From the NCBI RefSeq assembly GCF_014268275.3, contig NZ_CP077084.1, positions 2,542,001 to 2,606,000 on the forward strand: 64,000 nucleotides of DNA, given 5' to 3'. The stretch is from Pseudomonas tritici. Lineage in GTDB: Bacteria; Pseudomonadota; Gammaproteobacteria; Pseudomonadales; Pseudomonadaceae. The notes beneath the pieces are model-generated. The model was not told where the DNA came from. It saw only the letters and a list, made by a program, of their open reading frames with translations, and did not search any database. The translations under genes were made by a program, and so were the position numbers. This document shows, in pieces, positions 8,992-28,427 of this stretch (positions are counted from its first letter, which is position 1; every line of letters begins with the position of its first letter).

Positions 8992-10035
8992 TCAACGAAA
9001 CGCCGGCACCACATGCTTGATAAACAATTCCAGGGATTTTTTCTTCTCTGCGTGGGGCAGGCTGTTGTCACACCAGAAGCTGAACTCGTCGACACCCAGT
9101 TCCTGGTAGTACTGGATGCGCGGAATGATCTCTTCCGGCGTTCCGATCATCGCGGTCTTATGCAGGCTTTCCAGTTCAAACTCAGGGCGACCGGCGAATT
9201 TTTCTTCCGGGCTAGGGTCGAGGAAGCCGTTGACCGGCACGCTCTTGTTACCAAACCAGGCATCGAAGGTGCGGTAGAACTTCGAGATTGCCTTGGCCCC
9301 GACTTTCCAGCCTTCCGGGTCGTCAGCCGTATGCACATGGGTGTGGCGCAGCACCATCAGTTGCGGGCGTGGTACGTCAGGGTTGTTGTCCAGGGCGGCC
9401 TGGAATTTGTTTTTCAGGTCGAGGACTTCTTCATCACCCTTCATCAGCGGCGTGACCATTACATTGCAGCCGTTGGCGACGGCGAAGTTGTGGGAGTCCG
9501 GGTCGCGGGCGGCGATCCACATCGGCGGGTTGGGCTGTTGGATTGGTTTGGGCACGCTGGTGGAGGTGGGGAATTTCCAGATATCGCCGTCGTGGGCGTA
9601 GTCGCCTTTCCACAGTGCACGTACCACCGGCACCATCTCGCGCAGGGCCTGACCGCCGCTTGAGGCGGGCATGCCACCAGCCATGCGGTCAAACTCGACC
9701 TGATAGGCGCCCCGGGCCAGGCCGACTTCCATACGCCCGTTGCTGATCACGTCGAGCAGGGCGCATTCGCCTGCCACCCGCAATGGATGCCAGAACGGCG
9801 CAATGATGGTGCCAGCGCCCAAGTGAATGGTGGTGGTCTTGGCCGCGAGGTAAGCCAGCAGCGGCATCGGGCTTGGCGAGATGGTGTATTCCATGGCGTG
9901 GTGCTCGCCAATCCATACGGTGCTGAAACCACCGGCCTCGGCCATCAGGGTCAGTTCGGTCAAGTCTTCGAACAGCTGGCGATGGCTGACACTCTCATCC
10001 CAACGTTCCATGTGTACGAACAGGGAAAACTTCAT
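8992..10035 (-). CDS. tgnA: Luciferase-like flavin monooxygenase, probable TgnA (N-heterocycle ring cleavage)
   Basis: The 347-residue protein is an LLM-class flavin-dependent oxidoreductase with the bacterial-luciferase TIM barrel (WIGEHH at 42-47, LGAGTIIAPFWHP at 72-84, GLARGAYQVEFDR at 104-116). Such enzymes use reduced flavin from a separate reductase. In Acinetobacter, TgnA with reductase TgnB opens the pyridine ring of trigonelline between C2 and C3. The regulon contains two reductases, a TgnC-like dehydrogenase and a TgnD-like hydrolase, so the whole pathway is represented. An operator copy at 10145-10159 lies 110 bp upstream, and GAGGT precedes the ATG. Related substrates such as homarine, pyridine or another N-methylated heterocycle remain possible. 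Confidence 0.72.
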   Translation of the reverse strand: MKFSLFVHMERWDESVSHRQLFEDLTELTLMAEAGGFSTVWIGEHHAMEYTISPSPMPLLAYLAAKTTTIHLGAGTIIAPFWHPLRVAGECALLDVISNGRMEVGLARGAYQVEFDRMAGGMPASSGGQALREMVPVVRALWKGDYAHDGDIWKFPTSTSVPKPIQQPNPPMWIAARDPDSHNFAVANGCNVMVTPLMKGDEEVLDLKNKFQAALDNNPDVPRPQLMVLRHTHVHTADDPEGWKVGAKAISKFYRTFDAWFGNKSVPVNGFLDPSPEEKFAGRPEFELESLHKTAMIGTPEEIIPRIQYYQELGVDEFSFWCDNSLPHAEKKKSLELFIKHVVPAFR

Positions 10036-10144
10036 GACGCTTACCTCGGATCTATTGTGATCGGCCTGTCGACTGCGGGCCCTTAAGTGCTCTCGCCACT
10101 GTGAAGCGTGCCGGTGATAACGGCTGTTCGGCGGATTGATTGTT

Positions 10145-10159
10145 GGTATACCATAATAC
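10145..10159. promoter_or_regulatory. Shared operator copy 1 (GGTATACCATAATAC)
   Basis: This is one of six copies of GGWATACCRTAATAY in the window. It lies between the divergent monooxygenase and chemoreceptor genes. The following bases (GGAATATCC) extend it towards a 23-bp palindrome. It is the proposed binding site of the GntR regulator encoded at 48567-49319. Confidence 0.75.
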
Positions 10160-10223
10160 GGAATATCCGCAAAACTTTTCTCTCCAACGGTTGCACCCTC
10201 ACCTCACAAGGAAGGCGAGCTCG

Positions 10224-12170
10224 ATGAACATAAAACAAAAATTAATCCTGGCCTTTGCGGTGATCGCCAGCCTGCCGGTGATTCTGGTGGCTGTGCTGAT
10301 CATCCTCAATGTGCGCCATGAGGCCAGGGACGGCTTTGTCGACAGCAGTGGGCGCGAGATCCGCCAGGTGGACAACGCGATGCAGCTGTTTTTTGAAGGC
10401 ATCAGCCAGAACGTCGCCTATCTGGCCGGACACCCGCAGTTGCAGAGTATCAATGGTGATGTGAAACGCTACTTGGCCAGTGATGCGGCGCAGATCGCTC
10501 CCGGCGCGCGTGACGGGCAACTTTTCACGTTGTTCGAGGGCCTGGCCAAGAGTCACTCGGCCTACACCTATCTGTCCCTGGGCACCGAGGACGGCGGTTA
10601 TGTGTTCTGGCCCGGCGACCCCAAGCTAGCCAACTACGACCCACGCACACGGCCTTGGTATAAAACGGCCATGGCCCAGCCGGGCAAGACCCTGCGCACC
10701 GAGGCCTATTACTGGGCCGCCGACGATGTGGTGCTGGTCAGCACCGTGCAAAGCTTCAACGATCGCCAGGGCAAGGCGAGTGGGGTGGTGAACATCGACG
10801 TGTCCCTCAAGCAACTGACCGACCTGGTCAAGCAGATCAAGCTGGGCGAGAGCGGCTACCTGATGCTGATGGAAGCCAATAACACCGTGCTGGTGGACCC
10901 GAATGACCCGTCCCACAATTTCAAGAAGCTTGGCGAGCTGGGGGAAGGCTATCGGCAGTTGAGCGAAGCCGGCCAGGGGCTTGTGCAAGTCGAATTGGCG
11001 GGTGAGCGCTATATGGCCTTGGTATGGCCATCAAAGGCCTTGGGCTGGCGGTTTGTCGGGCTGGTGCGCGAGAGTGAAGTGATGGCCGGCGCAGCACGCC
11101 TGACCTGGCTGATTGCGGCCATTGCGCTGGTGTGCGGTGCGTTATTCGCGGTGGCCGGCGCCTGGTTTGCCGGGCTGATCGTCAAGCCGATTCGCGGCGT
11201 GGCCAGCGGCCTGGAAGGCATTGCCCAAGGTGAGGGCGACTTGACCGCGCGCCTGGATGTGAAAGGTCGCGATGAAACGGCGCAGCTTGCCGGTTGGTTC
11301 AACCAGTTCCTCGAAGCCATCCGCACGCTGATCCAACGTATCGGCCAGGCCGCCGCGCAGATCCACACCAGCTCAGGCAGTGCCACTGAAGTCTCGGTGG
11401 AGATGGCCGAAGTCGCCGAGCGACAGCGTGAAGCGGTGGATATGGTTTCGACGGCGTTTCATGAAATGGTCGCCACCTCCAACGAAGTCGCGCGCTCCTG
11501 CAGCCAGGCGGCCGACTCGGCCGACAACGGTCAGCGTCAGGCCCATACCGGGCAGCAGCAGATCGACGCGGCGGTGAGCAGTGTCGGGCGCTTGAGCCAG
11601 GAAATCGGCCACTCCGCCCAGGCCATGGAGCAGCTGGAAAAAGACAGCAATGACATACAGTCGATCCTCGGCACCATCCGCTCCATCGCCGAGCAGACCA
11701 ACCTGTTGGCGCTGAACGCCGCTATCGAAGCCGCGCGGGCGGGTGAGCAGGGTCGCGGTTTTGCGGTAGTGGCGGACGAGGTGCGCGCACTGGCCAAGCG
11801 CACCTCCGACTCCACCGGTGAAATCGACGGACTGCTCGGCAACCTGGCACGCCGCACTCATCAGATGGGCAAGCAGATGCATGCGAGCTTGGAGGTGTCC
11901 CAGGAAACGGTGGTGTCGATCAACGACGCGCGGGCCAGCTTTGGCCTGATCCGCGAGTCGGTCGACGTGATCCGCGACATGAACACGCAAATCGCCACCG
12001 CCGCCGAAGAGCAGCACCAGGTTGCCGAGGACATCAATCGGCACATCAGCCAGATTCATGGGGATGCGCAGTTAGTGGCAAGCCTGGCCGACTCCACGCG
12101 CCAGGATGCGCAGCAATTGACGGCGTTGTCGCAGACGTTGAATCAATTGGTCAGCCGCTTCCGCACCTGA
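10224..12170 (+). CDS. Methyl-accepting chemotaxis protein with dCACHE sensor
   Basis: The 648-residue chemoreceptor has a transmembrane helix near 8-28 and a periplasmic double-Cache domain with the hallmark DPRTRPWY at 139-146. A second transmembrane helix lies near 293-320, followed by HAMP and a cytoplasmic signalling domain with the conserved hairpin ([19 protein letters not shown]). I chose the ATG at 10224, behind AAGGAAGGCGAG, and not the upstream in-frame start at 10140, which would overlap the operator. Divergence from the monooxygenase gene across a shared operator suggests it senses the pathway substrate or a related compound. The ligand is not predictable from sequence. Confidence 0.9.
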
Positions 12171-12228
12171 CTGGCACCCTAGCGCAAACATGGACACCGG
12201 CAGACACGCTTTGGAATGCAGTCAAAAC

Positions 12229-12318
12229 TGTGGGAGCGGGCTTGCTCGCGAAGGCGGTGCATCAGTCACTGAATCCAACGACTGAAATACCGCCTTCGCG
12301 AGCAAGCCCGCTCCCACA
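12229..12318. repeat. REP-type inverted repeat pair
   Basis: Two perfect 30-bp inverted arms (12229-12258 and 12289-12318) begin with TGTGGGAGCGGGCTTGCTCG. Their loop is 30 bp. The element sits between convergent genes and belongs to the repetitive extragenic palindromes common in P. fluorescens genomes. It could act as a bidirectional terminator or mRNA stabiliser. Confidence 0.85.
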
Positions 12319-12352
12319 TTTGATCTTCGGTGTTTTCAGAAAGGGTCGGGGA

Positions 12353-12838
12353 TCAGGCAACCAAGGGCAGGGCGCCCATCTTGCCGTGGCAATACACCAG
12401 TGGCCCGGCGTTCTGCTGGGGCACGATCAGGTTTTTCACCGAGCCGACCATGATTGCGTGGTCGCCGCCTTCATATTCGCGCCACAACTCGCACTCGATC
12501 ACCGCCGTGGCATTGGCCAGGATCGGGTTGCCCAACTCACTGAGCGTCCATTCGATGCCCTGGGCCTTGTCCTTGCCTTTGCGCGCAAAGGCATAGGCTT
12601 CGGTTTGCTGCCCCCCGGAAAGCACGTGAATGGCAAAGCGCTTGTTCTTGATCAACACCGGGTACGAGTCGGAGCTGTAGTTGGGGCAGAACAGCACCAG
12701 GGCCGGGTCCATGGACAGTGAACTGAAGGCACTGGCGGTCAACCCGACGATTTGCCCCTCGTCATCGAGCGTGGTGATCACGGTGACACCGGACGGAAAC
12801 GAACCCATCACTTGTTTGTAGATAGCGGCATCAATCAT
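12353..12838 (-). CDS. tgnB: Flavin reductase, TgnB-like (copy 1)
   Basis: The 161-residue protein is a flavin-reductase-domain enzyme of the non-flavoprotein (HpaC-like) type, with FPSGVTVITT, GLTASAFSSLS and FCPNYSSDSYP segments. It would reduce FMN or FAD with NAD(P)H and pass it to the luciferase-like monooxygenase. It is closely similar in every segment to the second copy at 49746-50231. It stands alone, with its own operator 51 bp upstream (12889-12903). The presence of two reductases under the same element suggests dose or redundancy rather than separate pathways. The oxygenase it serves is inferred from the regulon. Confidence 0.82.
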   Translation of the reverse strand: MIDAAIYKQVMGSFPSGVTVITTLDDEGQIVGLTASAFSSLSMDPALVLFCPNYSSDSYPVLIKNKRFAIHVLSGGQQTEAYAFARKGKDKAQGIEWTLSELGNPILANATAVIECELWREYEGGDHAIMVGSVKNLIVPQQNAGPLVYCHGKMGALPLVA

Positions 12839-12888
12839 GGGACGGTCCTCTGCGGGTAATGTGGTTTTTATGAGTTTGTAGGTCTGAT

Positions 12889-12903
12889 GGTATACCGTAA
12901 TAC
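12889..12903. promoter_or_regulatory. Shared operator copy 2 (GGTATACCGTAATAC)
   Basis: Second copy of the 15-bp element, 51 bp upstream of flavin reductase copy 1. One base differs from copy 1. The rest of the 322-bp gap 12839-13160 holds only copy 3 and no gene. Confidence 0.72.
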
Positions 12904-13061
12904 AATCGATGCAACCGCTTTTTCAATCGCCCGATGAACGTCAATTCTGGGGCTTATCATCAATAAATACGGGAGCTATGGCGGGAAATAACAGGGTGCG
13001 CTGTGGCACAATTGCGGATCAGATGCGCGCTAAGACTACGGATCAGTCTTGTGAAAATGTT

Positions 13062-13076
13062 GGAATACCATAATAT
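13062..13076. promoter_or_regulatory. Shared operator copy 3 (GGAATACCATAATAT)
   Basis: Third copy, 85 bp upstream of the NCS1 transporter. Here the palindrome is nearly complete, GGAATACCATA followed by an A and TATGGTGTTC, which supports recognition by a dimeric repressor. Confidence 0.72.
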
Positions 13077-13160
13077 GGTGTTCATCTGAGGGGCAGCCAG
13101 AGAGCTCCCCCGGTTTGGCGTCAAACAACTATAAGATCAGACAAACGCGAGTTCATTTCC

Positions 13161-14567
13161 ATGCCCCAGATGTCCCGGCAAGACCCCCTGATCGAGCATC
13201 ACACGGTCGATTACGTCCCCCTCGCAGAGCGCCATGGAAAGGCCCGCGACCTGTTCACGTTATGGTTCAGCACCAACATCGCGCCGCTGCCGATCGTCAC
13301 GGGTGCCATGGTCGCCCAGGTGTTCCATCTCAATCTGGTGTGGGGGCTGCTGGCGATTGCCCTCGGGCACCTGCTCGGCGGCATCGTGATTGCCCTCGCA
13401 TCGGCCCAAGGCCCGCGCATGGGCATCCCGCAGATGGTGCAGAGCCGTGGCCAGTTCGGCCGTTACGGCGCGCTGCTGATCGTGTTCTTCGCCGCGCTGA
13501 TCTACATCGGCTTTTTCATCTCCAATATCGTCCTGGCTGGCAAGTCCATCGTCGGCATCGTGCCGTCGGTGCCGGTGCCGGCGAGCATCCTGATCGGCGC
13601 CCTCAGCGCCACCGCCATCGGCGTGATCGGCTATCGCTTTATCCATACCCTCAACCGCATCGGCACCTGGGTGATGGGCAGCGCTTTGCTGGCCGGTTTT
13701 ATCTACATTTTTGCCCATGACCTGCCGGCAGATTTCCTTACCCGTGGCGGCTTCAACGCGGCGGGCTGGTTGGCTACCGTGTCGCTGGGGGTGATCTGGC
13801 AGATCAGCTTTTCGCCCTACACCAGCGACTACTCGCGCTACCTGCCGGCGGACATTGGCATCACTCGGCCGTTCCTCGCCACCTACCTGGGCGCGACCCT
13901 CGGCACCATCCTGTCCTTCGCCTTTGGCTTGGTAGCTGCACTGGCCACGCCCGAAGGCACCGAAGCCATGGTCGCGGTCAAGCAAGCCACCGGCTGGCTG
14001 GGGCCGATCCTGATGGTGCTGTTCCTGCTCAATATCATCAGCCACAACGCCCTGAATCTGTACGGCGCGGTGCTGTCGATCATCACCTCGGTCCAGACCT
14101 TCGCCAGCCACTGGACACCGAGCATCAAGGTGCGCGTGGCGCTGTCGGGCGTGGTCCTGGCCGGTTGCTGCGTGGTGGCGTTGGGCGCGTCGGCGGACTT
14201 CATCTCGCAATTTATCGGCCTGATCCTCGCGCTGTTGCTGGTGTTGGTGCCGTGGGCGTCAATCAACCTGATCGACTTCTACATCATCAAGCGAGGGGTC
14301 TATGACATTGCCTCGATCTTCCAGGCCGATGGCGGGGTGTATGGGCGTTTCAACCTGCATGCGATCGTGGCGTACTTCATCGGCATCATCGTGCAACTGC
14401 CGTTTGCCAATACGTCGCTGTATGTGGGGCCGTGGGCCAACCTGGTGGAAGGCGCGGACTTGTCGTGGTTGGTGGGGTTGGTGGTGACGTGCCCGTTGTA
14501 TTACTGCCTGGCGACACGTCAACACACCCAAAAGGTCAGGGCGGCGCGGTTGGGCTACACCGACTGA
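13161..14567 (+). CDS. NCS1-family transporter
   Basis: The 468-residue membrane protein has about 12 transmembrane segments and the nucleobase-cation-symport-1 fold (early WFSTNIAPLPIVTGAM; mid-protein SDYSRYLP). NCS1 members import nucleobases, allantoin, hydantoins, thiamine, pyridoxine and related N-heterocycles, so an N-heterocyclic substrate such as trigonelline fits. Operator copy 3 lies upstream, placing it in the same regulon as the monooxygenase. The ribosome binding site is weak, and the ATG nine bases downstream (13170) is an alternative. Its 3' end overlaps the convergent mgdD gene by 13 bp. Confidence 0.85.
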   Translation: MPQMSRQDPLIEHHTVDYVPLAERHGKARDLFTLWFSTNIAPLPIVTGAMVAQVFHLNLVWGLLAIALGHLLGGIVIALASAQGPRMGIPQMVQSRGQFGRYGALLIVFFAALIYIGFFISNIVLAGKSIVGIVPSVPVPASILIGALSATAIGVIGYRFIHTLNRIGTWVMGSALLAGFIYIFAHDLPADFLTRGGFNAAGWLATVSLGVIWQISFSPYTSDYSRYLPADIGITRPFLATYLGATLGTILSFAFGLVAALATPEGTEAMVAVKQATGWLGPILMVLFLLNIISHNALNLYGAVLSIITSVQTFASHWTPSIKVRVALSGVVLAGCCVVALGASADFISQFIGLILALLLVLVPWASINLIDFYIIKRGVYDIASIFQADGGVYGRFNLHAIVAYFIGIIVQLPFANTSLYVGPWANLVEGADLSWLVGLVVTCPLYYCLATRQHTQKVRAARLGYTD

Positions 14568-15121
14568 CCCACGCCGCCGAACTCCTCCAGCGCATCCCGC
14601 AACGCGCCCTCGAAGTATGCCTTCGAGGCGCGATCCCAGAGGATATGAAACGCCGGCAGCTCCACACTGCCTGTGTGGATGACAATCGCATTGACCCGCG
14701 CCACCGAGGTCTGTGCCACCATCCCCGGCTTGAAGGCCGGGAAACTGAGATCCACCCCGCACAGCTTCGCCATCACCTGCGCAATCACCTCCCCGCTGAG
14801 CCGCACACAGGCATGGCTGTCCTGGCGCGGCAGCCGGTAGTTGGCGCGGTGGTCCAGTTCCCAACGCGCTTCTTCATCGGCAATCCGTTGCCCCTGATCC
14901 TGCAGGCTGCCCAGCACCAGGTATTCGTTCTGCGACAGGCGCGCCACCCAACTGCCGTCCGCTTGCGCGCAGGCTTGGTTAGGCGCGCCTGGCAACGTGA
15001 AGCCGCGCGCCGTGAGGTACTCGGCGCTTTGTGCGCCGCGAAAGCCGACCCGGGGCAGGTCGGTCTGGTCCTGCAGTTGGCAGGGCGGCGTGAACAATTC
15101 GTGGGCCTTCAGACTGGTCAT
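14555..15121 (-). CDS. mgdD: N-methylglutamate dehydrogenase gamma subunit (SoxG-like)
   Basis: The 188-residue protein resembles the gamma subunit of heterotetrameric sarcosine oxidase. It is the last gene of the leftward purU-folD-mgdABCD operon. In N-methylglutamate (NMG) pathway organisms the SoxBDAG-like complex MgdABCD oxidises N-methylglutamate to glutamate and passes the methyl carbon to tetrahydrofolate. The NMG reading, rather than sarcosine oxidase, is favoured by gmaS and mgsABC being divergently encoded next door. The subunit has no known catalytic residues. It begins 3 bp after mgdC ends. Confidence 0.8.
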   Translation of the reverse strand: MTSLKAHELFTPPCQLQDQTDLPRVGFRGAQSAEYLTARGFTLPGAPNQACAQADGSWVARLSQNEYLVLGSLQDQGQRIADEEARWELDHRANYRLPRQDSHACVRLSGEVIAQVMAKLCGVDLSFPAFKPGMVAQTSVARVNAIVIHTGSVELPAFHILWDRASKAYFEGALRDALEEFGGVGQSV

Positions 15122-15124: not shown

Positions 15125-18022
15125 TTAACCCTCCTGGCGTTGGTTAGTGGGGTCGAAGAACGGCAGTTGCACCACCTCGGCCTGGACGACGATGCCGCCT
15201 TCGACGCGAATCGGAATACGCTGCCCCGGTGTGCTTTGGTCGATCCCGGCGTAGGCCAGCCCGATGATGCGGCCCAGGCTGGTGGAGTATTCGCAGGAGG
15301 TGACGTTGCCGCTGATGTCCGCGCCGTTGAGCACCAGGTGGCCTTCCAGCGGTTGCACACTGCCCTTGGGCAGGCTGAAACCCACCAGTTTGCGTTTCAG
15401 CGGCTGGGCTTCGAGGATGTCCACCGAGCGGCGGCCGACGAAGAACGGCTTGTTGCGGCTGACTGCCCAGCCCATGTCGATTTCCGCCGGGTGGGTCATG
15501 CCATCGGTGTCCTGGCTGATGATCACGTGGCCTTTTTCCAGGCGTAGCAGGCGCTGGGTCTCGACGCCGAAGGGGCGAATGTCAAAGGCCTTGCCGGCCG
15601 CCATCAACGCGTCCCACAACGCCAGGCCGTGGCGTGCCGGTACGTGGATTTCATAGCCCAGTTCGCCGACGAACCCGACCCGCAGCAGGCGTGCCTTGAT
15701 CCCGGCCACCGTGCCCTGGCGCACGCCCAGATAGGGAAAACCTTCGGCACTGAGGTCGAGATCGCTGCACACCTGCGCCAGCACCTTGCGCGAGTCCGGC
15801 CCGGCCACGTTGACCGCACAGATCGCGGCGGTGACGTTGGTCACGTCCACATCCAGGCGCCACTGCGCGTTCCACTTGAGCATCTGCTGGTAAATACGAT
15901 CGACGCCGCTGGTGGTGGCGGTGACGTAGAAATGGTTGTCGGCCAGCCGCGCGCACACGCCGTCGTCGATCACCACTCCGTGCTCGTTGGTCATCAGCGC
16001 ATAACGCGAACGGCCCACCGGCTGCTTGAGGAACGCAAAGGTGTACATACGGTTGAGCAATTCGGCGGCGTCCGGGCCGCGCACGTCGAGACCGCCGAGT
16101 GTGGACACATCGATCAGCCCGACCTTGTTGCGCACGTGCAGCGCTTCGGCCTGCATGCACGCTTCGCGGTCCTGGGCCTTGCCGTAATAGGCCGGGCGCT
16201 GCCAGATCCCGGCGGGCATCATCTTCGCCCCGGCTTGCACATGGCGCGCGTGCATCGGTGTTTGGCGGTAGGGGTCGAAGGCGCGTCCGGCGACATGCGC
16301 GAGTTTCTCCGCCACGAACGGCGGCCGTGCGGTGGTGACCCCGGTTTCGCTGATAGTGCGCTGGGTCGCCCAGGCCACCAGCCGTGCGGTCGGCAGCGCT
16401 GAGTGGCGCCCCTGGGACGGGCCCATGCCGACCGTGGAATAGCGCTTCACCAACTGCACATCGCGGTAGCCAATGCGGGTGGCGTTGACGATGTCCGCCA
16501 CCTGCAGGTCTTCGTCGAAGTCGACGAAATCCTTGCCCTTGGGGTGCGGGAAGATCGGCCAGGGGAAGTTGACCTGAGCTTCAGGGCGCAGCGCTGCAGG
16601 CGGGCTGGAGCTGTTCAATCCGAGGGCGAGCAGGCTGTCGGCGGCGGCGTTGGTCGCATCCGCCAGCACATTGTCCAGTTGATGCCGACCGTGTACGGAA
16701 CCGGCCACGCCCAGATTGCGCGGCAGGCCACTGAGGCTGAACTCCGCCCGCGAGTCTTCATAGGCCAGCTTGCCACCGGCCTGGCACAGCAACTGATAGA
16801 CCGGCATATAACCGGCCGACATGCACAGCAGGTCGCAGTCGATCACTTGCCCGCTGGCGCTGACCTGGCCCTGGCCAGTGATCTGGCGCACGTCGACGCC
16901 CTTCACATGGCGCAGGCCTTTTTCATGCAGGGCCTCGAACACCGTGCTGTTGCTCAGGCACGCGATCTTGCGCTGGGCCAGGGCGCCCGGCAGGGCTTTG
17001 TCCGCCGGGGCCTGACGCAGGTCGATCACGGCGGCCACGTCCACGCCCTGGTCATGCAGGTCGAGGGCGGCCAGGTAGCCGTCATCGTTGCCGGTGAGCA
17101 CCACCGCGCGCCTGCCGGGCTTGACCGCATACAGCTTCATCAGGCGTTGCGCGGCGCTGGTGAGCATCACGCCCGGCAGGTCGTTGTTGCGGAAGACCAC
17201 CGGTTGGTCGAATGAACCGCTGCACACCAGGCACTGTTTTGCGCGCACTTTGTACAGGCGCTTGCCCTGGATCACCGGCAGGTAGTTGTCGGTGAACCAG
17301 GCATTGCAGGTGGCGTCGGTGAGCACCTGGATATTCGCGTGTTGCTGCACCGCGCCCAGCAACTCGCGGCGCAAGGTGTCGGCACGGGTGCCGGCAATAT
17401 CGAAGCGCGCGTAGGTCAGCGACCCGCCGAGGATCGGTTGCTGCTCGATCAGCAGCACCTTGGCGCCGGCATTCGCGGCGGTCAGCGCGGCCTGCAGGCC
17501 AGCGGGGCCGGCGCCGATCACGGCGAGGTCGGTAAACAGGTAGGCCTTGTCGTAGTACTCGGGTTGGAACGTCAGGTCGAGCACGCCCAGGCCGGCCTTT
17601 TTGCGGATGATCGGCTCCCAGACTTTCCACATGCCCTTGGGCTTGTAGAACGAACGGTAGTAGAAACCCACCGGCATGAACTTGGAGAACTTGCCCAGGT
17701 AGGCGTCCTTGTCGTTGTCCAGCGAGCCGTTGACGTTCTGCGCCGTCACCGCCAAGCCGGCGGACAGCGCGTGGGCGTCGGCTAATACGTTGGGTTCGCG
17801 AGGCAGTTGCACCAGGCTGTTGGCGTCCTGGCCGGCCATGGTCAACGGGCCGCGTGGGCGGTGGTATTTGAACGAGCGCGACATCAGGAAACGCCCGTTG
17901 GCGAGCAGGGCGCTGGCGATGCTGTCGCCCTGCAAACCTTGGTAGGGCAGGCCGTCGAAGCTGAAGTCGAGTGGCTGGTCACGCTGGATCAGCAGGCCCA
18001 TGGGGGCGGGGAGGCGGTTCAT
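15125..18022 (-). CDS. mgdC: N-methylglutamate dehydrogenase alpha subunit (SoxA-like)
   Basis: The 965-residue subunit has three parts. The N-terminal region of about 100 residues is ferredoxin-like (Fer2_4). A two-dinucleotide-binding region contains the NAD/FAD loop VIGAGPAGLQAAL near residue 170. The C-terminal half is a GcvT-like folate-binding domain, ending in aminomethyltransferase C-terminal sequence. It would channel the methylene group from substrate oxidation to tetrahydrofolate, yielding 5,10-methylene-THF. I set the start at 18022, overlapping the end of mgdB by 4 bp, because the upstream extension is mgdB read out of frame. Whether the substrate is sarcosine or N-methylglutamate is judged from neighbours only. 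Confidence 0.85.
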   Translation of the reverse strand: MNRLPAPMGLLIQRDQPLDFSFDGLPYQGLQGDSIASALLANGRFLMSRSFKYHRPRGPLTMAGQDANSLVQLPREPNVLADAHALSAGLAVTAQNVNGSLDNDKDAYLGKFSKFMPVGFYYRSFYKPKGMWKVWEPIIRKKAGLGVLDLTFQPEYYDKAYLFTDLAVIGAGPAGLQAALTAANAGAKVLLIEQQPILGGSLTYARFDIAGTRADTLRRELLGAVQQHANIQVLTDATCNAWFTDNYLPVIQGKRLYKVRAKQCLVCSGSFDQPVVFRNNDLPGVMLTSAAQRLMKLYAVKPGRRAVVLTGNDDGYLAALDLHDQGVDVAAVIDLRQAPADKALPGALAQRKIACLSNSTVFEALHEKGLRHVKGVDVRQITGQGQVSASGQVIDCDLLCMSAGYMPVYQLLCQAGGKLAYEDSRAEFSLSGLPRNLGVAGSVHGRHQLDNVLADATNAAADSLLALGLNSSSPPAALRPEAQVNFPWPIFPHPKGKDFVDFDEDLQVADIVNATRIGYRDVQLVKRYSTVGMGPSQGRHSALPTARLVAWATQRTISETGVTTARPPFVAEKLAHVAGRAFDPYRQTPMHARHVQAGAKMMPAGIWQRPAYYGKAQDREACMQAEALHVRNKVGLIDVSTLGGLDVRGPDAAELLNRMYTFAFLKQPVGRSRYALMTNEHGVVIDDGVCARLADNHFYVTATTSGVDRIYQQMLKWNAQWRLDVDVTNVTAAICAVNVAGPDSRKVLAQVCSDLDLSAEGFPYLGVRQGTVAGIKARLLRVGFVGELGYEIHVPARHGLALWDALMAAGKAFDIRPFGVETQRLLRLEKGHVIISQDTDGMTHPAEIDMGWAVSRNKPFFVGRRSVDILEAQPLKRKLVGFSLPKGSVQPLEGHLVLNGADISGNVTSCEYSTSLGRIIGLAYAGIDQSTPGQRIPIRVEGGIVVQAEVVQLPFFDPTNQRQEG

Positions 18023-21323: not shown

Positions 21324-21406
21324 GACACGTCCTCGGGATGATGGCGGCAGCTCATCGCATAGCGAAAAAATGTCTGAGGACAGCAGGCTCATTCCTTGAG
21401 CGCGTT

Positions 21407-21794: not shown

Positions 21795-22394
21795 TCACTC
21801 TTTGTCGTTACCGTAGTTCATGATCGACAACAACCGAATCGGCACCCGCACCAACTCCTCAGGCCCATGGGGAATCTCGCCCTCAAACGTCAGGCTGTCC
21901 CCGGCCTCCATGCGATACAACTGGTTGCCGTGGCGATAAATCAGCTCCCCTTCAAGCAGGTGCAGAAACTCGGTCCCTGGGTGCGCAAACGTAGGAAACT
22001 CCTCACTGGCGTCATCCATGCTGACCATGTACGCCTCGAAGCTCTTCTTCGGCCCGCGCGTATGGTTGAGCAGGTGATAGGTATGCCCCTTCTCGGTCCC
22101 CCGGCGCACCACTTCCATGCCTTGGTCGGCCTTGACCAGCAAGGCGCTGCCATCCTGCTGGTCGTATTCGCTGAATAATTTCGAGAGCGGCAGCCCGAGC
22201 ACATCGCACAGGCGGCTCAAGGTATCGAGGCTGGTGGAGACCTGGGCGTTCTCGATCTTGCTCAACATGCCCTGGCTGATATCGGCAATTTTTGCCACGT
22301 CAGATAGCTTCAGGTCCTGGGCCTGGCGCTGGCGTTTGATCTGCAGCCCCAGGTATTGCTCGAGCTTGAGGCGCGGGGCGGTTTCGGTGGACAT
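21795..22394 (-). CDS. XRE-family transcriptional regulator with C-terminal cupin
   Basis: The 199-residue protein joins an N-terminal helix-turn-helix of the XRE type (LSDVAKIADISQGMLSKIENAQ, about residues 30-51) to a C-terminal cupin domain that would bind a small ligand. Related XRE-cupin proteins control amine, polyamine and amino-acid catabolism. It is divergent from gmaS and next to the mgd operon, so it is the best candidate regulator of the methylamine genes. The start at 22394 is chosen because GGAG lies nine bases upstream; in-frame ATGs at 22400 and 22412 have poorer spacing. Shared TTCCTGYAGGGAA boxes before three operons fit its size and symmetry. Confidence 0.85.
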   Translation of the reverse strand: MSTETAPRLKLEQYLGLQIKRQRQAQDLKLSDVAKIADISQGMLSKIENAQVSTSLDTLSRLCDVLGLPLSKLFSEYDQQDGSALLVKADQGMEVVRRGTEKGHTYHLLNHTRGPKKSFEAYMVSMDDASEEFPTFAHPGTEFLHLLEGELIYRHGNQLYRMEAGDSLTFEGEIPHGPEELVRVPIRLLSIMNYGNDKE

Positions 22395-22489
22395 GATCAT
22401 CGGCTCCTGCACGGTTTCCGTTCAGTAATATTATTTTCGCACTGGGAAAGTGCAACGTCTGGCGCTTAAAGGCCACCCTGCTGTACGTA

Positions 22490-22676: not shown

Positions 22677-24011
22677 ATGTTGCCAGCAGAAACCCAGCGC
22701 ATCATCGACAAGCACGGGATCAAGTACGTGCTTGCGCAGTTTGTGGATATACACGGTGCGGCCAAGACCAAGTCGGTGCCCATCTGCGGGCTCAAGACGG
22801 TGGCCGAAGAGGGCGCGGGGTTTGCCGGGTTTGCCATCAGCGGCATGGGCATGGAGCCCCACGGTCCGGACTTCATGGCGCGCGGCGATCTGTCGACATT
22901 GACCCCGGTACCCTGGCAGCCAGGTTATGGGCGCGTGGTGTGCGTCGGCCATGTCGACGGCAAACCCCACCCCTACGACAGCCGCTACGTGTTGCAGCAA
23001 CAAGTGCAGCGCCTGCAGGACAAGGGCTGGACGCTGAACACCGGCCTCGAACCCGAGTTCAATCTGATGCGCCGTGACGAGCAGGGCACGTTGCAATTGG
23101 TCGACCCCAGCGACAACCTCGACAAGCCTTGCTACGACTACAAGGGCCTGTCGCGTTCGCGGGTGTTCCTCGAGCGCCTGACCGAAGCCTTGCAGGCGGT
23201 GGATTTCGAGGTCTATCAAATCGACCACGAAGACGCCAACGGCCAGTTCGAGATCAACTACACCTACAGCGACGCCCTGACGTCCGCCGACCGTTTCACC
23301 TTCTTCCGCATGGCCGCCGGCGAGATCGCCAATGACCTGGGCATGATCTGCTCCTTCATGCCCAAGCCCGACCCGAAACGCGCCGGCAATGGTATGCACT
23401 TTCACCTGTCGATCAGCAGCGCCGAGAACAAAAACCTGTTCCATGACGCCAGCGACCCGAGCGGCATGGGCTTGTCGAAACTCGCCTATCACTTCGCCGC
23501 CGGCTTGCTCGCCCACGGCCCGGCGCTGTGTGCGTTCGCTGCGCCCACCGTCAACTCGTACAAGCGCCTGGTGGTCGGCAACTCGTTGTCCGGCGCCACC
23601 TGGGCCCCGGCCTTCATCGCGTTTGGCGCCAACAACCGCTCGGCCATGGTGCGCGTGCCGTACGGTCGCCTGGAATTTCGCCTGCCGGATGCCGGCTGCA
23701 ACCCCTATCTGGTCAGCGCCGCGATCATCGCCGCGGGCCTGGACGGTATCGATCGCCAGCTGGAAATCGACCACGTCTGCAACGAAAACCTCTACAGCCT
23801 GAGCCTCGAGCAGATCGCCGAGCGCGGCATCAAGACCCTGCCGCAGTCCCTCAAGGAAGCCTGCGACGCGCTGGAAGCCGACGCGCTGTTCGCCGAAGTG
23901 CTCGGCCCGCAGATTGTGGGTGAGTTCATCAAGCTCAAGCGTATGGAGTGGGTGGAGTACAGCCGCCATGTGAGCGACTGGGAAATCCAGCGCTACACCG
24001 AATTTTTCTGA
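22677..24011 (+). CDS. gmaS: Gamma-glutamylmethylamide synthetase (GlnA-type III)
   Basis: The 444-residue protein is a glutamine-synthetase-like ligase. It has GLEPEFNLM (metal-binding glutamate), [17 protein letters not shown] and [13 protein letters not shown], which form the ATP/metal bifunnel. GmaS ligates methylamine to glutamate with ATP, giving gamma-glutamylmethylamide. It leads an operon with three glutamate-synthase-like genes and is flanked by a dehydrogenase operon, which is the classical NMG gene set; a plain glutamine synthetase would not need them. A sigma-54-type promoter and palindromic boxes precede it. The long antisense frame across it is a shadow. Confidence 0.86.
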
Positions 24012-24033: not shown

Positions 24034-24942
24034 ATGTGTGGAATCGTAGGCCTGTACCTGAAGAATCCGCAGCTGGAACCCCAGCTCGGCAAGCTGTTTG
24101 AACCCATGCTGCAAGCCATGACCGACCGTGGCCCGGACAGCGCCGGTTTCGCCATCTACGGCGATGAAGTCGCCGATGGCTGGGTCAAGCTGACCCTGCA
24201 AGCCACCACCGAAGCCTTCGACTGGAAAGGCTTGATGGGCGAGCTGGAAGGGCGCCTCGGCTGTTCCCTGGATTGGTTCCAGAACGCCAGCGCCGCTGTA
24301 CTTAAGATCCACGCCGACGAAGCCCCGGTACGCCTGGCCCTGGCCGAACTGGCGCCGAGCGTGCGCATCATGAGCGCCGGGCAGAGTATCGAGATCCTCA
24401 AGGGCATGGGCCTGCCCCAGGAGATTTCCCAGCGCTTCGGCCTGGCAAACATGCAGGGCAGCCACATCATCGGCCATACGCGCATGGCCACGGAAAGCGC
24501 GGTGACCATGGAAGGCAGCCACCCGTTTTCCACCGGCGCCGACCTGTGCCTGGTGCACAACGGCTCGCTGTCCAACCACTTCCGCCTGCGCCAGGAACTC
24601 AAGCGCGAAGGCATCCATTTTGAAACCGACAACGACACCGAAGTCGCCGCCGGCTACCTGACCTGGCGTCTGCAACAGGGTGATTCGCTCAAAGAGGCGC
24701 TGGACCATTCCCTGGAAGACCTCGACGGCTTCTTCACCTTCGCCATCGGCACGCGCAACGGCTTTGCGGTGATCCGCGACCCGATTGCGTGCAAGCCGGC
24801 GATCCTCGCCGAGACCGACGATTACGTCGCCATGGCCTCCGAGTACCAGGCGCTGTCGAGCCTGCCGGGCATCGAGAACGCGCGGATCTGGGAGCCGGCA
24901 CCGGCCACGTTGTACATCTGGGAACGCGAGTCAGCAGCTTAA
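24034..24942 (+). CDS. mgsA: N-methylglutamate synthase subunit A (class II glutamine amidotransferase)
   Basis: The 302-residue protein begins MCGIVG, exposing Cys2 as the N-terminal nucleophile of class II (Ntn) amidotransferases. DRGPDSAGF, GHTRMATES and VHNGSLSNH complete the glutaminase site. In N-methylglutamate synthase this subunit hydrolyses gamma-glutamylmethylamide to release methylamine within the complex. It follows gmaS by 22 bp. The same three-gene set is called GlxBCD where it is not linked to gmaS. Confidence 0.86.
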   Translation: MCGIVGLYLKNPQLEPQLGKLFEPMLQAMTDRGPDSAGFAIYGDEVADGWVKLTLQATTEAFDWKGLMGELEGRLGCSLDWFQNASAAVLKIHADEAPVRLALAELAPSVRIMSAGQSIEILKGMGLPQEISQRFGLANMQGSHIIGHTRMATESAVTMEGSHPFSTGADLCLVHNGSLSNHFRLRQELKREGIHFETDNDTEVAAGYLTWRLQQGDSLKEALDHSLEDLDGFFTFAIGTRNGFAVIRDPIACKPAILAETDDYVAMASEYQALSSLPGIENARIWEPAPATLYIWERESAA

Positions 24943-24953
24943 GGAGCGCACAC

Positions 24954-25628
24954 ATGAAAACCATCGATCTTTCCACCGCCACCGTGCGTGACCTCAACCA
25001 GGCGTTGCACGCCCAGGCCATCGACAACGAGTGGCGCGTGACCCATTCCAACGGCAAGCACAATCTCGCCGTGGGCGTGAACCAGGCCGTGTCCATCGAT
25101 ATCGAGGGCCACGCCGGTTATTACTGCGCAGGCATGAACCAACAGGCCTCGATCACCGTGCACGGCAATGTCGGCGTGGGCTGCGCCGAGAACATGATGT
25201 CCGGCTTTGTGCGCGTCAAAGGCAGCGCGTCCCAGGCTGCCGGGGCCACGGCCCATGGCGGTCTGCTGGTGATCGAGGGCGACGCGGGCGCGCGTTGCGG
25301 GATTTCCATGAAGGGCATCGACATCGTCGTCGGCGGTAGCATCGGCCATATGAGCTGCTTCATGGGCCAGGCCGGGCGTCTGGTGGTGTGCGGCGACGCC
25401 GGCGATGCGCTGGGCGATTCGCTCTACGAAACCCACATCTACGTGAAAGGCACGGTGGAGTCCCTGGGCTCGGACTGCGTCGAAAAAGAGATGCGCAGCG
25501 AACACCTGCACGAGCTGCAGGAACTGCTCGACCGCGCCGGTTTCGCCCACCAGGCGGCAGATTTCAAGCGCTACGGCTCGGCCCGTCAACTCTACAACTT
25601 CAAAGTCGATAACGCCTCCGCGTACTGA
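24954..25628 (+). CDS. mgsB: N-methylglutamate synthase subunit B (GltB C-terminal-like beta-helix)
   Basis: The 224-residue protein corresponds to the right-handed beta-helix domain at the C-terminus of the large glutamate synthase subunit. It shows the glycine-rich periodicity (HAGYYCAGMNQQA, GNVGVGCAENMMSGFV, GGSIGHMSCFMGQAG). It has a structural role in the synthase. I set the start at 24954 behind AAGGAG; the longer frame overlaps mgsA in another frame. Confidence 0.85.
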   Translation: MKTIDLSTATVRDLNQALHAQAIDNEWRVTHSNGKHNLAVGVNQAVSIDIEGHAGYYCAGMNQQASITVHGNVGVGCAENMMSGFVRVKGSASQAAGATAHGGLLVIEGDAGARCGISMKGIDIVVGGSIGHMSCFMGQAGRLVVCGDAGDALGDSLYETHIYVKGTVESLGSDCVEKEMRSEHLHELQELLDRAGFAHQAADFKRYGSARQLYNFKVDNASAY

Positions 25629-25642
25629 TCAGGAGCTCCACC

Positions 25643-26965
25643 ATGACTGAACAAACCCCTCCGGTCCTGCGCGAGTCGGCCACCTTCGACCGCCTGACCA
25701 TCCAGGAAATCCAGCGTGCCGCCGAAACTGGCATCTACGATATTCGCGGCGGCGGCACCAAGCGCAAGCTGCCGCACTTCGATGACTTGCTGCTGCTCGG
25801 CGCCAGCGTGTCGCGCTACCCGCTGGAAGGTTATCGCGAGAAGTGCGGCACCGATGTGATCCTCGGCAATCGCTTCGCCAAGAAGCCTATCCACCTGAAG
25901 ATCCCGGTGACCATCGCTGGCATGAGTTTCGGTGCGTTGTCGGCCAACGCCAAGGAAGCCCTGGGCCGTGGCGCGACCATCGCCGGCACCAGCACCACCA
26001 CCGGTGACGGCGGCATGACCCCGGAAGAGCGCGGCCAGTCCCAGCACCTGGTGTATCAGTACCTGCCGTCGCGCTACGGCATGAACCCGGATGATCTGCG
26101 CAAGGCCGACGCCATCGAGATCGTCCTCGGCCAGGGCGCCAAGCCCGGCGGCGGCGGCATGTTGCTCGGCATGAAGGTCACCGAGCGTGTGGCCGGCATG
26201 CGCACCTTGCCCATCGGCGTGGACCAGCGCAGCGCCTGCCGCCACCCGGACTGGACCGGCCCGGATGACCTGGCGATCAAGATTGCCGAGCTGCGTGAAA
26301 TCACCGATTGGGAAAAACCGATCTACGTGAAAATCGGCGCGAGCCGGCCGTATTACGACGTGAAGCTGGCGGTCAAGGCCGGTGCCGATGTGATCGTGCT
26401 CGACGGCATGCAAGGCGGCACCGCCGCGACGCAGGAAGTGTTTATCGAGCATGTGGGCATCCCGATTTTGTCGGCCATCCCGCAAGCGGTACAGGCTTTG
26501 CAAGAGATGGGCATGCACCGCAAGGTCCAGTTGATCGTGTCGGGCGGGATTCGCAACGGTGCCGATGTGGCCAAGGCCATGGCGATGGGCGCGGACGCGG
26601 TGGCCATCGGCACGGCGGCGCTGATTGCTCTGGGCGACAACCACCCACGGCTGGACGCGGAGCTGAAAAAGATCGGCTCGGCCGCCGGCTTCTACGACGA
26701 CTGGCAGAACGGCCGCGATCCGGCGGGCATCACCACTCAGGACCCGGAGCTGTCCAAGCGCCTTGACCCGGTGGAAGGCGGGCGGCGGTTGGCCAACTAC
26801 CTTCGGGTGATGGTGTTGGAGGCACAGACCATGGCGCGTGCGTGCGGCAAATCGCACCTGCACAACCTCGACCCCGAGGACCTGGTGGCGCTGACCGTGG
26901 AGTCGGCCGCCATGGCCCGGGTACCGCTGGCGGGGACCCGTTGGGTACCCGGTTCCGGCTACTGA
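25643..26965 (+). CDS. mgsC: N-methylglutamate synthase subunit C (FMN glutamate synthase domain), Fe-S cysteines absent
   Basis: The 440-residue protein is the FMN-binding TIM barrel of glutamate synthase (PVTIAGMSFGALS, GQGAKPGGGGMLLG, VIVLDGMQGGTAAT, VSGGIRNGADVAKAMAMGAD). It would combine methylamine with 2-oxoglutarate to form N-methylglutamate. In glutamate synthase the segment before ITTQDPEL carries the cysteines of a 3Fe-4S cluster (CPxG). Here it reads GRDPAGITTQDPEL, with no cysteines, so no such cluster is expected. It is followed by a REP element and the ammonium transporter. Confidence 0.85.
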   Translation: MTEQTPPVLRESATFDRLTIQEIQRAAETGIYDIRGGGTKRKLPHFDDLLLLGASVSRYPLEGYREKCGTDVILGNRFAKKPIHLKIPVTIAGMSFGALSANAKEALGRGATIAGTSTTTGDGGMTPEERGQSQHLVYQYLPSRYGMNPDDLRKADAIEIVLGQGAKPGGGGMLLGMKVTERVAGMRTLPIGVDQRSACRHPDWTGPDDLAIKIAELREITDWEKPIYVKIGASRPYYDVKLAVKAGADVIVLDGMQGGTAATQEVFIEHVGIPILSAIPQAVQALQEMGMHRKVQLIVSGGIRNGADVAKAMAMGADAVAIGTAALIALGDNHPRLDAELKKIGSAAGFYDDWQNGRDPAGITTQDPELSKRLDPVEGGRRLANYLRVMVLEAQTMARACGKSHLHNLDPEDLVALTVESAAMARVPLAGTRWVPGSGY

Positions 26966-26976
26966 GTTTACCCCCC

Positions 26977-27076
26977 TGTAGGAGCGAGCTTGCTCGCGAA
27001 GGTCGTCAACGATAACGCAGGCATCCTGGATGCCCACGTTGCCTGCGCGTTTTTCGCGAGCACGCTCGCTCCTACA
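26977..27076. repeat. REP-type inverted repeat between mgsC and amt
   Basis: 24-bp arms (26977-27000 and 27053-27076) with one mismatch belong to the TGTAGGAGCGAGC variety of the repeat. It lies 25 bp before the amt start codon and could separate amt expression from the upstream operon. Confidence 0.8.
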
Positions 27077-27101
27077 CATTTCTTTTGCAGGAGCTTTGAA
27101 C

Positions 27102-28427
27102 ATGGTCAATCGTCTTCTCGGCAAATCCCTCTTCGGTTTATTAGTGGCCGGTGCCTTTGCACCCTTGGCGTACGCCGCTGATGCACCCACTTTGAACACC
27201 GGCAGCACCGCCTGGATGGTCACCGCCGCCGTGCTGGTGCTGTTCATGTGCTTGCCGGGGCTTGCGCTGTTCTACGGTGGCCTCGTCCGTGCGAAAAACA
27301 TGCTTTCGCTGTTCACCCAGTGCTTCGGCATCGCCGGGTTGGTGGGCGTGCTGTGGGTGATCTACGGCTATAGCATGGTGGTCGACACCACCGGCATGGT
27401 CGAAGGGCAGGTGACCTTCAACAGTTTTGTCGGCGGCCTCAGCCGGGCCTTCCTGGCAGGCATGACCCCGGAGAGCCTGGTGGGGGATATCCCGGAAGGG
27501 GTGTTCGTGACCTTCCAGATGACGTTCGCCATCATCACCCCGGCCCTGATCGCCGGCGCCTTTGCCGAACGCATGAAGTTCTCGGCGGCGCTGTGGTTCA
27601 TGGCGCTATGGTTCACCCTGGTGTATGCCCCGGTGGCGCATATGGTCTGGGGCGGTTCGGGGGCCTTGATGCATAACTGGGGCGTGCTCGACTTTGCCGG
27701 CGGCACCGCCGTGCATATCAATGCGGGTGTGGCCGCGCTCGCCGCGTGCCTGATCCTCGGCAAGCGCAAGGGCTATCAGAACACGCCGATGCCTGCGCAT
27801 AACCTCAGCCTGACCATGGCCGGCGCGGCGATGCTCTGGGTCGGTTGGTTCGGCTTCAATATCGGCTCCGGCGGCGGCCTCAGCGGCACCTCGGGCATCG
27901 TCATGCTCAACACTCAGTTGGGCGCCTGCGCCGGGATTCTCGGCTGGATGTTCACTGAGTGGTTCAAGGTCGGCAAGCCCAGCGCCCTTGGCCTGGCCAG
28001 CGGTGCATTGGCGGGGTTGGTGGGGATTACCCCGGCGTGCGCTTATGTCGGTGTCGGCGGTGCATTGGCCATCGGCTTGCTGTGCGGGGTGTTCTGCTAC
28101 CTGAGCGTGACCGTGTTGAAGCGCCGCTTCGGCTACGACGACAGCCTCGATGTGTTCGGCTTGCACGGCATCGGCGGCATGATCGGCGCGGTGTTGACCG
28201 GCGTATTCTGCGTGCCGTCCATGGGGGGGCTGGTGGAAGGCGTGACCATGGGCGGTCAGGTGGTGGCGCAAATCAAGGGCGTACTGTTGACCACGGTGTA
28301 TTGCTTTGTGGTCAGTTGGATCATCCTCAAGGTGGTCAATGCGCTGGTCGGTCTGCGTGCCCATGAATCGGTGGAAGAGATGGGGCTGGACCTCGCCGAG
28401 CATAACGAGCGGGCTTACAACCACTGA
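27102..28427 (+). CDS. amt: Ammonium/methylammonium transporter
   Basis: The 441-residue Amt-family channel has a cleavable signal sequence (AYA-AD near residue 26), about 11 transmembrane segments and typical motifs (FYGGLVRAKNMLS, WGGSGALMHNWG, GWFGFNIGSGG, FGLHGIGGMIGA). Amt proteins carry ammonium and also methylammonium, so it may supply methylamine for GmaS or recover ammonium. It is codirectional with gmaS-mgsABC, but a REP element intervenes. The ATG at 27102 follows GCAGGAG; the upstream in-frame extension runs through the repeat. Confidence 0.93.
   Translation: MVNRLLGKSLFGLLVAGAFAPLAYAADAPTLNTGSTAWMVTAAVLVLFMCLPGLALFYGGLVRAKNMLSLFTQCFGIAGLVGVLWVIYGYSMVVDTTGMVEGQVTFNSFVGGLSRAFLAGMTPESLVGDIPEGVFVTFQMTFAIITPALIAGAFAERMKFSAALWFMALWFTLVYAPVAHMVWGGSGALMHNWGVLDFAGGTAVHINAGVAALAACLILGKRKGYQNTPMPAHNLSLTMAGAAMLWVGWFGFNIGSGGGLSGTSGIVMLNTQLGACAGILGWMFTEWFKVGKPSALGLASGALAGLVGITPACAYVGVGGALAIGLLCGVFCYLSVTVLKRRFGYDDSLDVFGLHGIGGMIGAVLTGVFCVPSMGGLVEGVTMGGQVVAQIKGVLLTTVYCFVVSWIILKVVNALVGLRAHESVEEMGLDLAEHNERAYNH

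Follow-up and report, generated by a model that had tools for sequence, protein, structure and literature searches.

The stretch treated here, called the window throughout, is 64 kb (64,000 nucleotides) of the Pseudomonas tritici contig NZ_CP077084.1, in a genome of 6.24 Mb that forms a single contig. It carries, in two separated halves, genes resembling those for cleavage of the trigonelline (N-methylnicotinate) ring, and between them genes for the use of methylated amines. The left half (8992-14567) holds an oxygenase, a chemoreceptor, a flavin reductase and a transporter; the right half (42225-53253) runs from an ABC transporter to a DUF1185 protein. Judged from its sequence, the locus is quite probably a trigonelline catabolic regulon that holds a methylated-amine block, with the N-methylglutamate (NMG) pathway recovering the methylamine. 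The ring-cleavage genes are listed below, with identities to the annotated tgn cluster on a plasmid of Acinetobacter sp. PK01.

8992-10035, minus strand: LLM-class flavin-dependent oxygenase, TgnB-type (Pfam PF00296, E 1e-54)
10140-12170, plus strand: dCache_1 chemoreceptor (methyl-accepting chemotaxis protein); start codon uncertain, probably 3' of the site at 10144
12353-12838, minus strand: flavin reductase 1 (FR1), TgnA-type (PF01613)
13161-14567, plus strand: NCS1-family transporter, 56% to the PK01 permease
42225-46248, minus strand: ABC transporter as a whole, a member of the ring-cleavage regulon by synteny
42225-43589, minus strand: its ATPase
43397-44206 and 44213-45142, minus strand: its permeases
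45127-46248, minus strand: its solute-binding protein
46381-47490, minus strand: ribBA (riboflavin synthesis)
47560-47853, plus strand: DUF1330 protein, also in the PK01 cluster
48001-48564, minus strand: NUDIX hydrolase, matching part of PK01 TgnA weakly (27%)
48567-49424, minus strand: GntR/FCD regulator
49746-50231, minus strand: flavin reductase 2 (FR2)
50244-51725, minus strand: aldehyde dehydrogenase (ALDH), TgnC-type, 52% to PK01 TgnC
51722-52618, minus strand: alpha/beta hydrolase, TgnD-type, 37% to the PK01 hydrolase
52600-53253, minus strand: DUF1185/AA_synth protein, 57.5% to its PK01 counterpart; probable start 53190

Oxygenase, flavin reductase, TgnC-type ALDH and TgnD-type hydrolase are thus all present. 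A first-pass annotation, made from the letters of the window, had named them together with gmaS, mgsABC and mgdABCD, and these genes are present. It had placed the system at 8992-28427, which does take in the left half; the regulon, however, runs on to 53253. It had listed one flavin reductase where there are two, and its use of TgnA for the oxygenase and TgnB for the reductase is the reverse of the annotated record, where the two names are exchanged. The ribBA gene would serve flavin supply. One ABC permease reading frame (44213-45142) gave no Pfam match, and among solved structures the oxygenase, DUF1185 protein and hydrolase matched only general relatives or uncharacterized proteins. The block between the halves reads as follows.

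14555-15121, minus strand: mgdD, sarcosine-oxidase-gamma-like (N-methylglutamate dehydrogenase); TIGR01375 below cut-off, assigned by its position beside mgdA-C
15125-18211, minus strand: mgdC, sarcosine-oxidase-alpha-like; TIGR01372 at 875 bits, short of the SoxA cut-off
18019-18318, minus strand: mgdB, sarcosine-oxidase-delta-like; TIGR01374 below cut-off
18332-19573, minus strand: mgdA, sarcosine-oxidase-beta-like; TIGR01373 below cut-off
19555-20460, minus strand: folD (oxidation of methylene-tetrahydrofolate); NF010790 over cut-off
20457-21392, minus strand: purU (formyl-tetrahydrofolate deformylase); TIGR00655 over cut-off
21795-22412, minus strand: XRE-cupin regulator adjoining gmaS (HTH_3 and Cupin_2)
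22677-24011, plus strand: gmaS (gamma-glutamylmethylamide synthetase), in an mgs/mgd setting; TIGR03105 over cut-off
24034-24942, plus strand: mgsA, amidotransferase domain (N-methylglutamate synthase)
24789-25628, plus strand: mgsB, GXGXG domain; its start codon probably lies farther downstream
25643-26965, plus strand: mgsC, glutamate-synthase-like domain (PF01645, E 2e-91)
27030-28427, plus strand: amt, Amt-type ammonium transporter; TIGR00836 over cut-off
28563-29525, minus strand: second folD
29542-31221, minus strand: trimethylamine N-oxide (TMAO) permease; NF053774 over cut-off
31296-33608, minus strand: tdm, TMAO demethylase; NF053776 over cut-off
33608-34975, minus strand: tmm, trimethylamine (TMA) monooxygenase; NF058570 over cut-off
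34996-35862, minus strand: second purU
35893-39454, minus strand: dimethylamine (DMA) monooxygenase genes, namely GcvT-like (35893-37023), HODM-like (37054-38079), reductase (38082-39011) and DmmA family (39008-39454; NF041259 over cut-off)
39306-40751, 40669-41379 and 41380-42120, plus strand: sensor kinase, NarL-type response regulator and a 246-amino-acid reading frame

The NMG pathway is complete in this block (gmaS, mgsABC and mgdABCD), and so is the gene set for oxidation of TMA and TMAO (tmm, tdm, dmm). The mgdC reading frame shows GCV_T, SO_alpha_A3 and Fer2_4 domains, and its start codon probably lies inside the frame; TIGR03105, the model matched by gmaS, is that of type III glutamate--ammonia ligase. 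In two other genomes (G405 and G366) the ABC ATPase gene comes after NCS1: homology to the window ends at about 14,568 and restarts at about 42,225, leaving 27.7 kb extra in the window. The block may have been gained in the window lineage or lost in G405 and G366. Repetitive extragenic palindrome-like inverted repeats (GTGGGAGCGGGCTTGCTCGC-type) occur at 12171-12352, 28428-28562, 42121-42224 and 47850-48000, the right border of the extra block included; such repeats at gene borders are possible rearrangement sites.

Do the two ring-cleavage stretches belong together? A palindrome, TGGTATACCA, recurs in the window with at most one mismatch, as follows.

10144-10153: TGGTATACCA, about 110 bp 5' of the oxygenase start
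12888-12897: TGGTATACCG, between FR1 and NCS1
13061-13070: TGGAATACCA, between FR1 and NCS1
46335-46344: TGGTATTCCA, before the solute-binding protein gene
47524-47533: TGGTATACCA, before ribBA
53227-53236: TGGTATACCA, at the 5' end of the DUF1185 gene

All six sites lie near 5' ends of ring-cleavage genes, in both halves, and none was found from 13.1 to 46.3 kb, a span that takes in the NMG/TMA block; 100 shuffles of the window gave a mean of 0.51 and a maximum of 3. Genome G010, which has no gmaS match, carries the genes in one stretch (L050), in the order DUF1185-hydrolase-ALDH-FR2-(second ALDH)-gntR-nudix-ribBA-ABC transporter-FR1-oxygenase. Because of the excess of sites and this contiguity, the two stretches are halves of one regulon, beyond chance, and the proposal that gmaS, mgs and mgd stand between two parts of a single regulon is borne out. 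The ABC transporter adjoins the tgn-type genes in G010, and its solute-binding protein is 69% identical to a counterpart in G242. The GntR/FCD protein is the candidate reader of the sites. Several GntR-type patterns that were tried had no match in the window; the matches to one loose pattern, 14 in all, were scattered.

The tgn genes of the PK01 plasmid (tgnA, tgnB and tgnC as annotated) stand with genes for DUF1185, alpha/beta hydrolase, NCS1, succinate-semialdehyde dehydrogenase (SSADH), GntR and DUF1330 proteins. The comparison with Acinetobacter that had been proposed yields identities of 37-57%: 49% for the oxygenase, 37% for the reductase (FR1 against the flavin-reductase part of PK01 TgnA), 52% for the ALDH, 37% for the hydrolase, 57.5% for DUF1185 and 56% for NCS1. 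The window reductases have 161 amino acids, against 310 in PK01 TgnA, in which Pfam recognizes no domain other than flavin reductase; the weak NUDIX match offers only a suggestion that TgnA may be a reductase-NUDIX fusion. The Tgn set reported for Acinetobacter baylyi has, like the window, an oxygenase with its flavin reductase, an ALDH, a hydrolase and a conserved hypothetical protein, which is probably DUF1185. Compared with the Acinetobacter sets, the cluster of the window lacks SSADH and has ribBA and an ABC transporter added. The absence of SSADH (TgnE) from the cluster had been noted at first reading, with supply from elsewhere expected, and two loci over the TIGR01780 cut-off do lie elsewhere in the genome. 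An SSADH over the same cut-off is found within both sister operons tested (G010 and G248), and an annotated SSADH is included in an Arthrobacter cluster whose oxygenase is 79% identical to that of the window. In G042, G060, G069 and G008 a second ALDH occupies a similar position. A GABA permease gene adjoining the window cluster (53615-55024, over the TIGR01773 cut-off) may relate to the succinate semialdehyde product.

In a midpoint-rooted tree of 25 oxygenases out of 81 collected (A. baylyi not among them), the window sequence groups with Pseudomonas, Nitrincola, Actinobacteria, G312 and G248, at a split of 100/100. The other half contains Acinetobacter, Sinorhizobium, Shinella, Ensifer, Ruegeria, Paraburkholderia, Caballeronia, Mesorhizobium, Azospirillum, G242 and G396. 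The window and PK01 oxygenases thus belong to sister clades, and the substrate has to be judged by other evidence. The trigonelline region of Sinorhizobium meliloti pSymA (L092; gntR-DUF1185-hydrolase-FR-LLM-ALDH-ABC-second ALDH) resembles the window in content, but its oxygenase is of the other clade and the mapped 19-kb stretch has no NMG genes. Three oxygenase homologues with 79-83% identity bear the JGI label 'flavin-dependent trigonelline monooxygenase, oxygenase component', and two hydrolase homologues, at 96%, the label '(E)-2-((N-methylformamido)methylene)succinate hydrolase'. Third-party names of the KO (KEGG Orthology) type were not accepted as functional proof, since the sister clade carries them too. 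A third oxygenase type, of 40-45% identity, occurs with DUF1185, ALDH, hydrolase and reductase genes at L189, L190 and L191 (G740, G561 and G677); these stretches have no TGGTATACCA site, and the enzymes may act on another N-heterocycle.

The linkage of ring cleavage to methylamine genes is recurrent. Among 119 Pseudomonas genomes, the oxygenase is found in 63 (partial matches in G046 and G080), the hydrolase in 64, both in 63, and gmaS in 28; all but one of the gmaS genomes have the oxygenase (27/28, partial in G080; Fisher 3e-8, uncorrected for kinship). The two genes lie less than 30 kb apart in 19 of these 27, farther apart on the same contig in three and on different contigs in five. At least four junction types are seen in the stretches retrieved. 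The methylamine genes lie between NCS1 and the ABC ATPase in the window, G059 and G048 (over two contigs), with the NCS1 side only in G101; beyond the oxygenase via the TMA block in G022 and G070; beyond the oxygenase via amt, in stretches free of TMA genes, in G018, G066, G085, G051, G086 and G071; and on the nudix side via amt, a second NCS1 gene or both in G065, G077, G081, G045 and G057, the last with its oxygenase 73 kb away. Outside Pseudomonas, linkage is found in another genus of Pseudomonadaceae (G776) and in another family (G242, L054), and partial linkage on the PK01 plasmid, where the stretch read contains mgd genes, as well as in Azospirillum B510, with mgsAB. The coupling is a feature of Pseudomonas, with scattered cases elsewhere in the sequences compared.

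Where does the methylamine come from? Tmm, the methylamine source covered by the search, has a match (E <= 1e-100) in 12 of the 27 genomes with both oxygenase and gmaS and none in 15; in those 15, TMA oxidation by Tmm cannot be the source. G113, the only gmaS genome without the oxygenase, has Tmm, and none of the 28 lacks both. A named panel assembled via the neighbouring pbpG gene (53 loci; 43 genomes searched; G066 and G071 belong to both sets) contains 21 genomes with oxygenase and gmaS, two with gmaS only, five with oxygenase only and 15 with neither (Fisher 1e-5, again uncorrected for kinship). Tmm is present in three of the 21, of which 19 were tested as panel genomes and two (G409 = G066, G432 = G071, identified by their equal coordinates) counted from the genus set. 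The first-pass idea of a trigonelline-type cleavage joined to the NMG pathway is thus supported by the tgn-parallel gene content, the recurrent linkage and the genomes without Tmm. It had overlooked the TMA, TMAO and DMA genes at 28563-39454, another source of methylamine.

A site of the form TGG(T/C)ATACCA lies 131-136 bp 5' of gmaS in 15 of 23 panel genomes (mean 0.26, maximum 3, in 300 shuffles). It is missing from the other eight, namely P. helleri, P. chlororaphis, P. morbosilactucae, P. ovata, P. californiensis, P. avellanae, P. graminis and P. syringae pv. cilantro. At five of the 28 genus-set loci, gmaS is preceded by a site that differs from it at no more than one position (G018, G066, G085 and G022 at 131-136 bp, G008 at 92 bp; one locus had no upstream sequence and one 208 bases only), and in G776 a one-mismatch site lies about 100 bp upstream. 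Homologous promoters share ancestry, so these sites represent few independent events. In the P. syringae group, gmaS was probably recruited into the trigonelline regulon, with GntR as putative controller. The motif is also shared with plasmid clusters, which speaks for trigonelline as the substrate: TGGWATACCA is found in nine of 11 named trigonelline-type loci (L091-L101), with one mismatch in S. meliloti (L092) and no site in Arthrobacter (L095).

Published trigonelline phenotypes fit the oxygenase distribution in part. The tables of two studies, PMC9412563 and PMC10890144, give trigonelline use for 97.9% of 48 P. viridiflava isolates in one and for all 33 pv. actinidiae, two pv. actinidifoliorum and 18 P. 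syringae isolates in the other. In PMC6283537 the six listed strains of P. coronafaciens are trigonelline-negative (the P. syringae data there come partly from earlier literature), and an extract of PMC10974278 places P. tremae ICMP 9151 in the same phylogenomic species (average nucleotide identity >98%). S. meliloti without pSymA, the replicon with the sister-type cluster (L092), did not grow on trigonelline, according to part of PMC4207669. The window-type oxygenase is present in 26 of the 43 panel genomes, with a single match in each at E <= 1e-60; an oxygenase of the annotated type would pass this limit, so no second one was found. DUF1185 and the hydrolase stand beside pbpG in 17 of the 53 loci, including those of P. 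viridiflava ICMP 19473 and ICMP 2848, P. syringae pv. cilantro, P. asturiensis, P. congelans and P. cichorii; some other genomes have the oxygenase elsewhere. A P. syringae hydrolase (P0230) had no near-identical match in 42 chosen genomes (best 90%, G022). P. tremae ICMP 9151, whose whole genome was searched for the oxygenase and gmaS only, has neither. Against pv. cilantro, homology at its pbpG locus breaks just before DUF1185 and resumes in the 3' part of the ALDH gene: DUF1185, the hydrolase and most of the ALDH are missing from this locus, FR2 alone was detected, and neither gntR nor nudix was seen in the following 5 kb.

These findings suggest the following scheme. Trigonelline would enter via the NCS1 and ABC transporters, and its ring would be opened by the oxygenase with reduced flavin from the flavin reductases. 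The aldehyde would be oxidized by the ALDH, and the hydrolase, with DUF1185, would split the product into formate, CO2, methylamine and succinate semialdehyde. The ring-cleavage steps follow the TgnA-E pathway of A. baylyi that Perchat et al. reportedly described in 2018. Succinate semialdehyde would pass to the tricarboxylic acid (TCA) cycle via an SSADH encoded elsewhere. Methylamine would be captured by GmaS and converted to N-methylglutamate by MgsABC; MgdABCD would oxidize this to glutamate and methylene-tetrahydrofolate, with FolD and PurU handling the one-carbon unit. The same sink would also serve TMA, TMAO and DMA in the window strain, making the TMA genes a second methylamine source, which may matter more or less than trigonelline. 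GntR would control the ring-cleavage promoters at TGGTATACCA and, in P. syringae relatives, probably gmaS as well. Gene content, sites, recurrent linkage and the partial agreement with published phenotypes are observed; substrate, reaction order and regulator binding are what we infer here. The chemoreceptor, which lies between oxygenase and flavin reductase and adjoins a regulon site, is a candidate trigonelline chemoreceptor; it is also beside the oxygenase in G059, G067, G071, G060, G008 and G211.

Several observations weigh against a trigonelline regulon with its own methylamine sink. The P. tremae case is a single loss event, in a genome for which PMC10974278 notes quality problems, and the phenotyped strains differ from those sequenced. 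Two panel genomes are labelled P. syringae, one with the oxygenase and one (GAW0119) without a match; four are labelled P. viridiflava, and in half of these (p23.C6 and p8.G8) there is no match. Because the collection has one genome per species, these labels are probably not all correct, and misnamed P. viridiflava strains are on record in the same extract of PMC10974278. In P. amygdali ICMP 3918 the half from DUF1185 to nudix is present, with no oxygenase match. The window oxygenase lies outside the clade that unites annotated TgnB and S. meliloti (100/100), and so is not a member of it in the strict sense. Among 398 Pseudomonadota (oxygenase limit 1e-80), 23 have the oxygenase, three of them of the third type (40-44%), 10 have gmaS and two both, an association that is not significant (Fisher 0.11). 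Lastly, the NMG block brings its own TMA route, and window gmaS has no TGGTATACCA-type site upstream.

The last two points would suit an arrangement in which the NMG genes of the window strain serve only TMA, TMAO and DMA, and their place in the regulon is an accident of insertion. The genes for Tmm, Tdm, the TMAO permease and the DMA monooxygenase share the block, which occupies about 14,569-42,224 relative to G405 and G366; in G008, G060 and G113, a distance of about 10-27 kb separates gmaS from Tmm, with no oxygenase gene nearby; and P. helleri DSM 29165 (L166, L196) has a gmaS 98% identical to that of the window with no oxygenase match in its genome, which suggests recent transfer of NMG genes. 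But an accident would hardly recur through at least four junction types, and it leaves the 15 of 27 genomes without Tmm, and the site before gmaS in related species, to be accounted for. We regard it as improbable, if the foremost of the alternatives. Slightly less probable still is a different ring substrate: homarine, some other N-methylpyridine carboxylate or an N-methylated heterocycle of another kind. The distinct oxygenase clade and the imperfect phenotype match would allow this, and for homarine a connection between an N-methylpyridine and Mgd has already been published: Mgd is reported to take part in its catabolism (Ferrer-Gonzalez 2026, as cited in an extract of PMC13390433). SSADH in the sister operons, however, suits a nicotinate-type skeleton, the single oxygenase match per panel genome leaves no annotated-type stand-in, and the lineage recorded as trigonelline-negative is without the oxygenase; action of TgnA/TgnB on homarine is also held unlikely on steric grounds in part of PMC8269262. 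Breakdown of a pyridine that carries no N-methyl group, with the methylamine genes unrelated, is very improbable: LLM-class flavin-dependent oxygenases could act on other pyridines, but the recurrent NMG linkage and the 37-57% identity to the annotated trigonelline set speak against it.

With trigonelline as the preferred substrate, a wider evolutionary picture seems reasonably probable, though we hold it with less assurance than the catabolic assignment. The methylamine sink would be an evolved branch of the Pseudomonas trigonelline regulon, present in several arrangements; in the P. syringae group GntR would control gmaS via TGG(T/C)ATACCA about 132 bp upstream; and the oxygenase would represent a second trigonelline-cleaving lineage, common to Pseudomonas and Actinobacteria. 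The novelty lies in a new linkage of known pathways. The window has all subunits of the NMG pathway together with folD and purU, placed, unlike in the known form, inside a heterocycle-degradation regulon. The marine TMA oxidation cluster of Ruegeria pomeroyi likewise has tmm, tdm, dmm, gmaS and mgd together, as described in part of PMC13390433; compared with it, the window has the XRE-cupin regulator and the two-component system and is joined to ring-cleavage genes. A search of titles and abstract openings found no literature joining trigonelline catabolism and the NMG pathway, and the papers listed as naming both concern human metabolites, though an earlier mention in the key trigonelline or homarine papers is possible.

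Trigonelline is an abundant plant betaine. If the NMG pathway does recover the methylamine from its ring, a single locus supplies from it carbon for the TCA cycle, nitrogen for glutamate and one-carbon units, and gmaS, a marker of marine methylamine users, would have a plant-linked role, so that its presence need not imply TMA use. The trigonelline-use diagnostic test of plant-associated Pseudomonas would likewise gain a testable genetic basis.

Two neighbouring stretches deserve mention. Adjoining the ring-cleavage genes, at 56100-60140, are genes for xanthine dehydrogenase-type cytochrome c, molybdopterin-binding and 2Fe-2S proteins, possibly a nicotinate hydroxylase. At 845-8699, opine-dehydrogenase-like, SbnA-like pyridoxal phosphate enzyme, Orn/Arg decarboxylase-like, CitE-like and SerK-like genes occur with a TonB siderophore receptor, the only one to pass its NCBIfam cut-off; this may be a staphyloferrin-B-like or opine-type metallophore locus.

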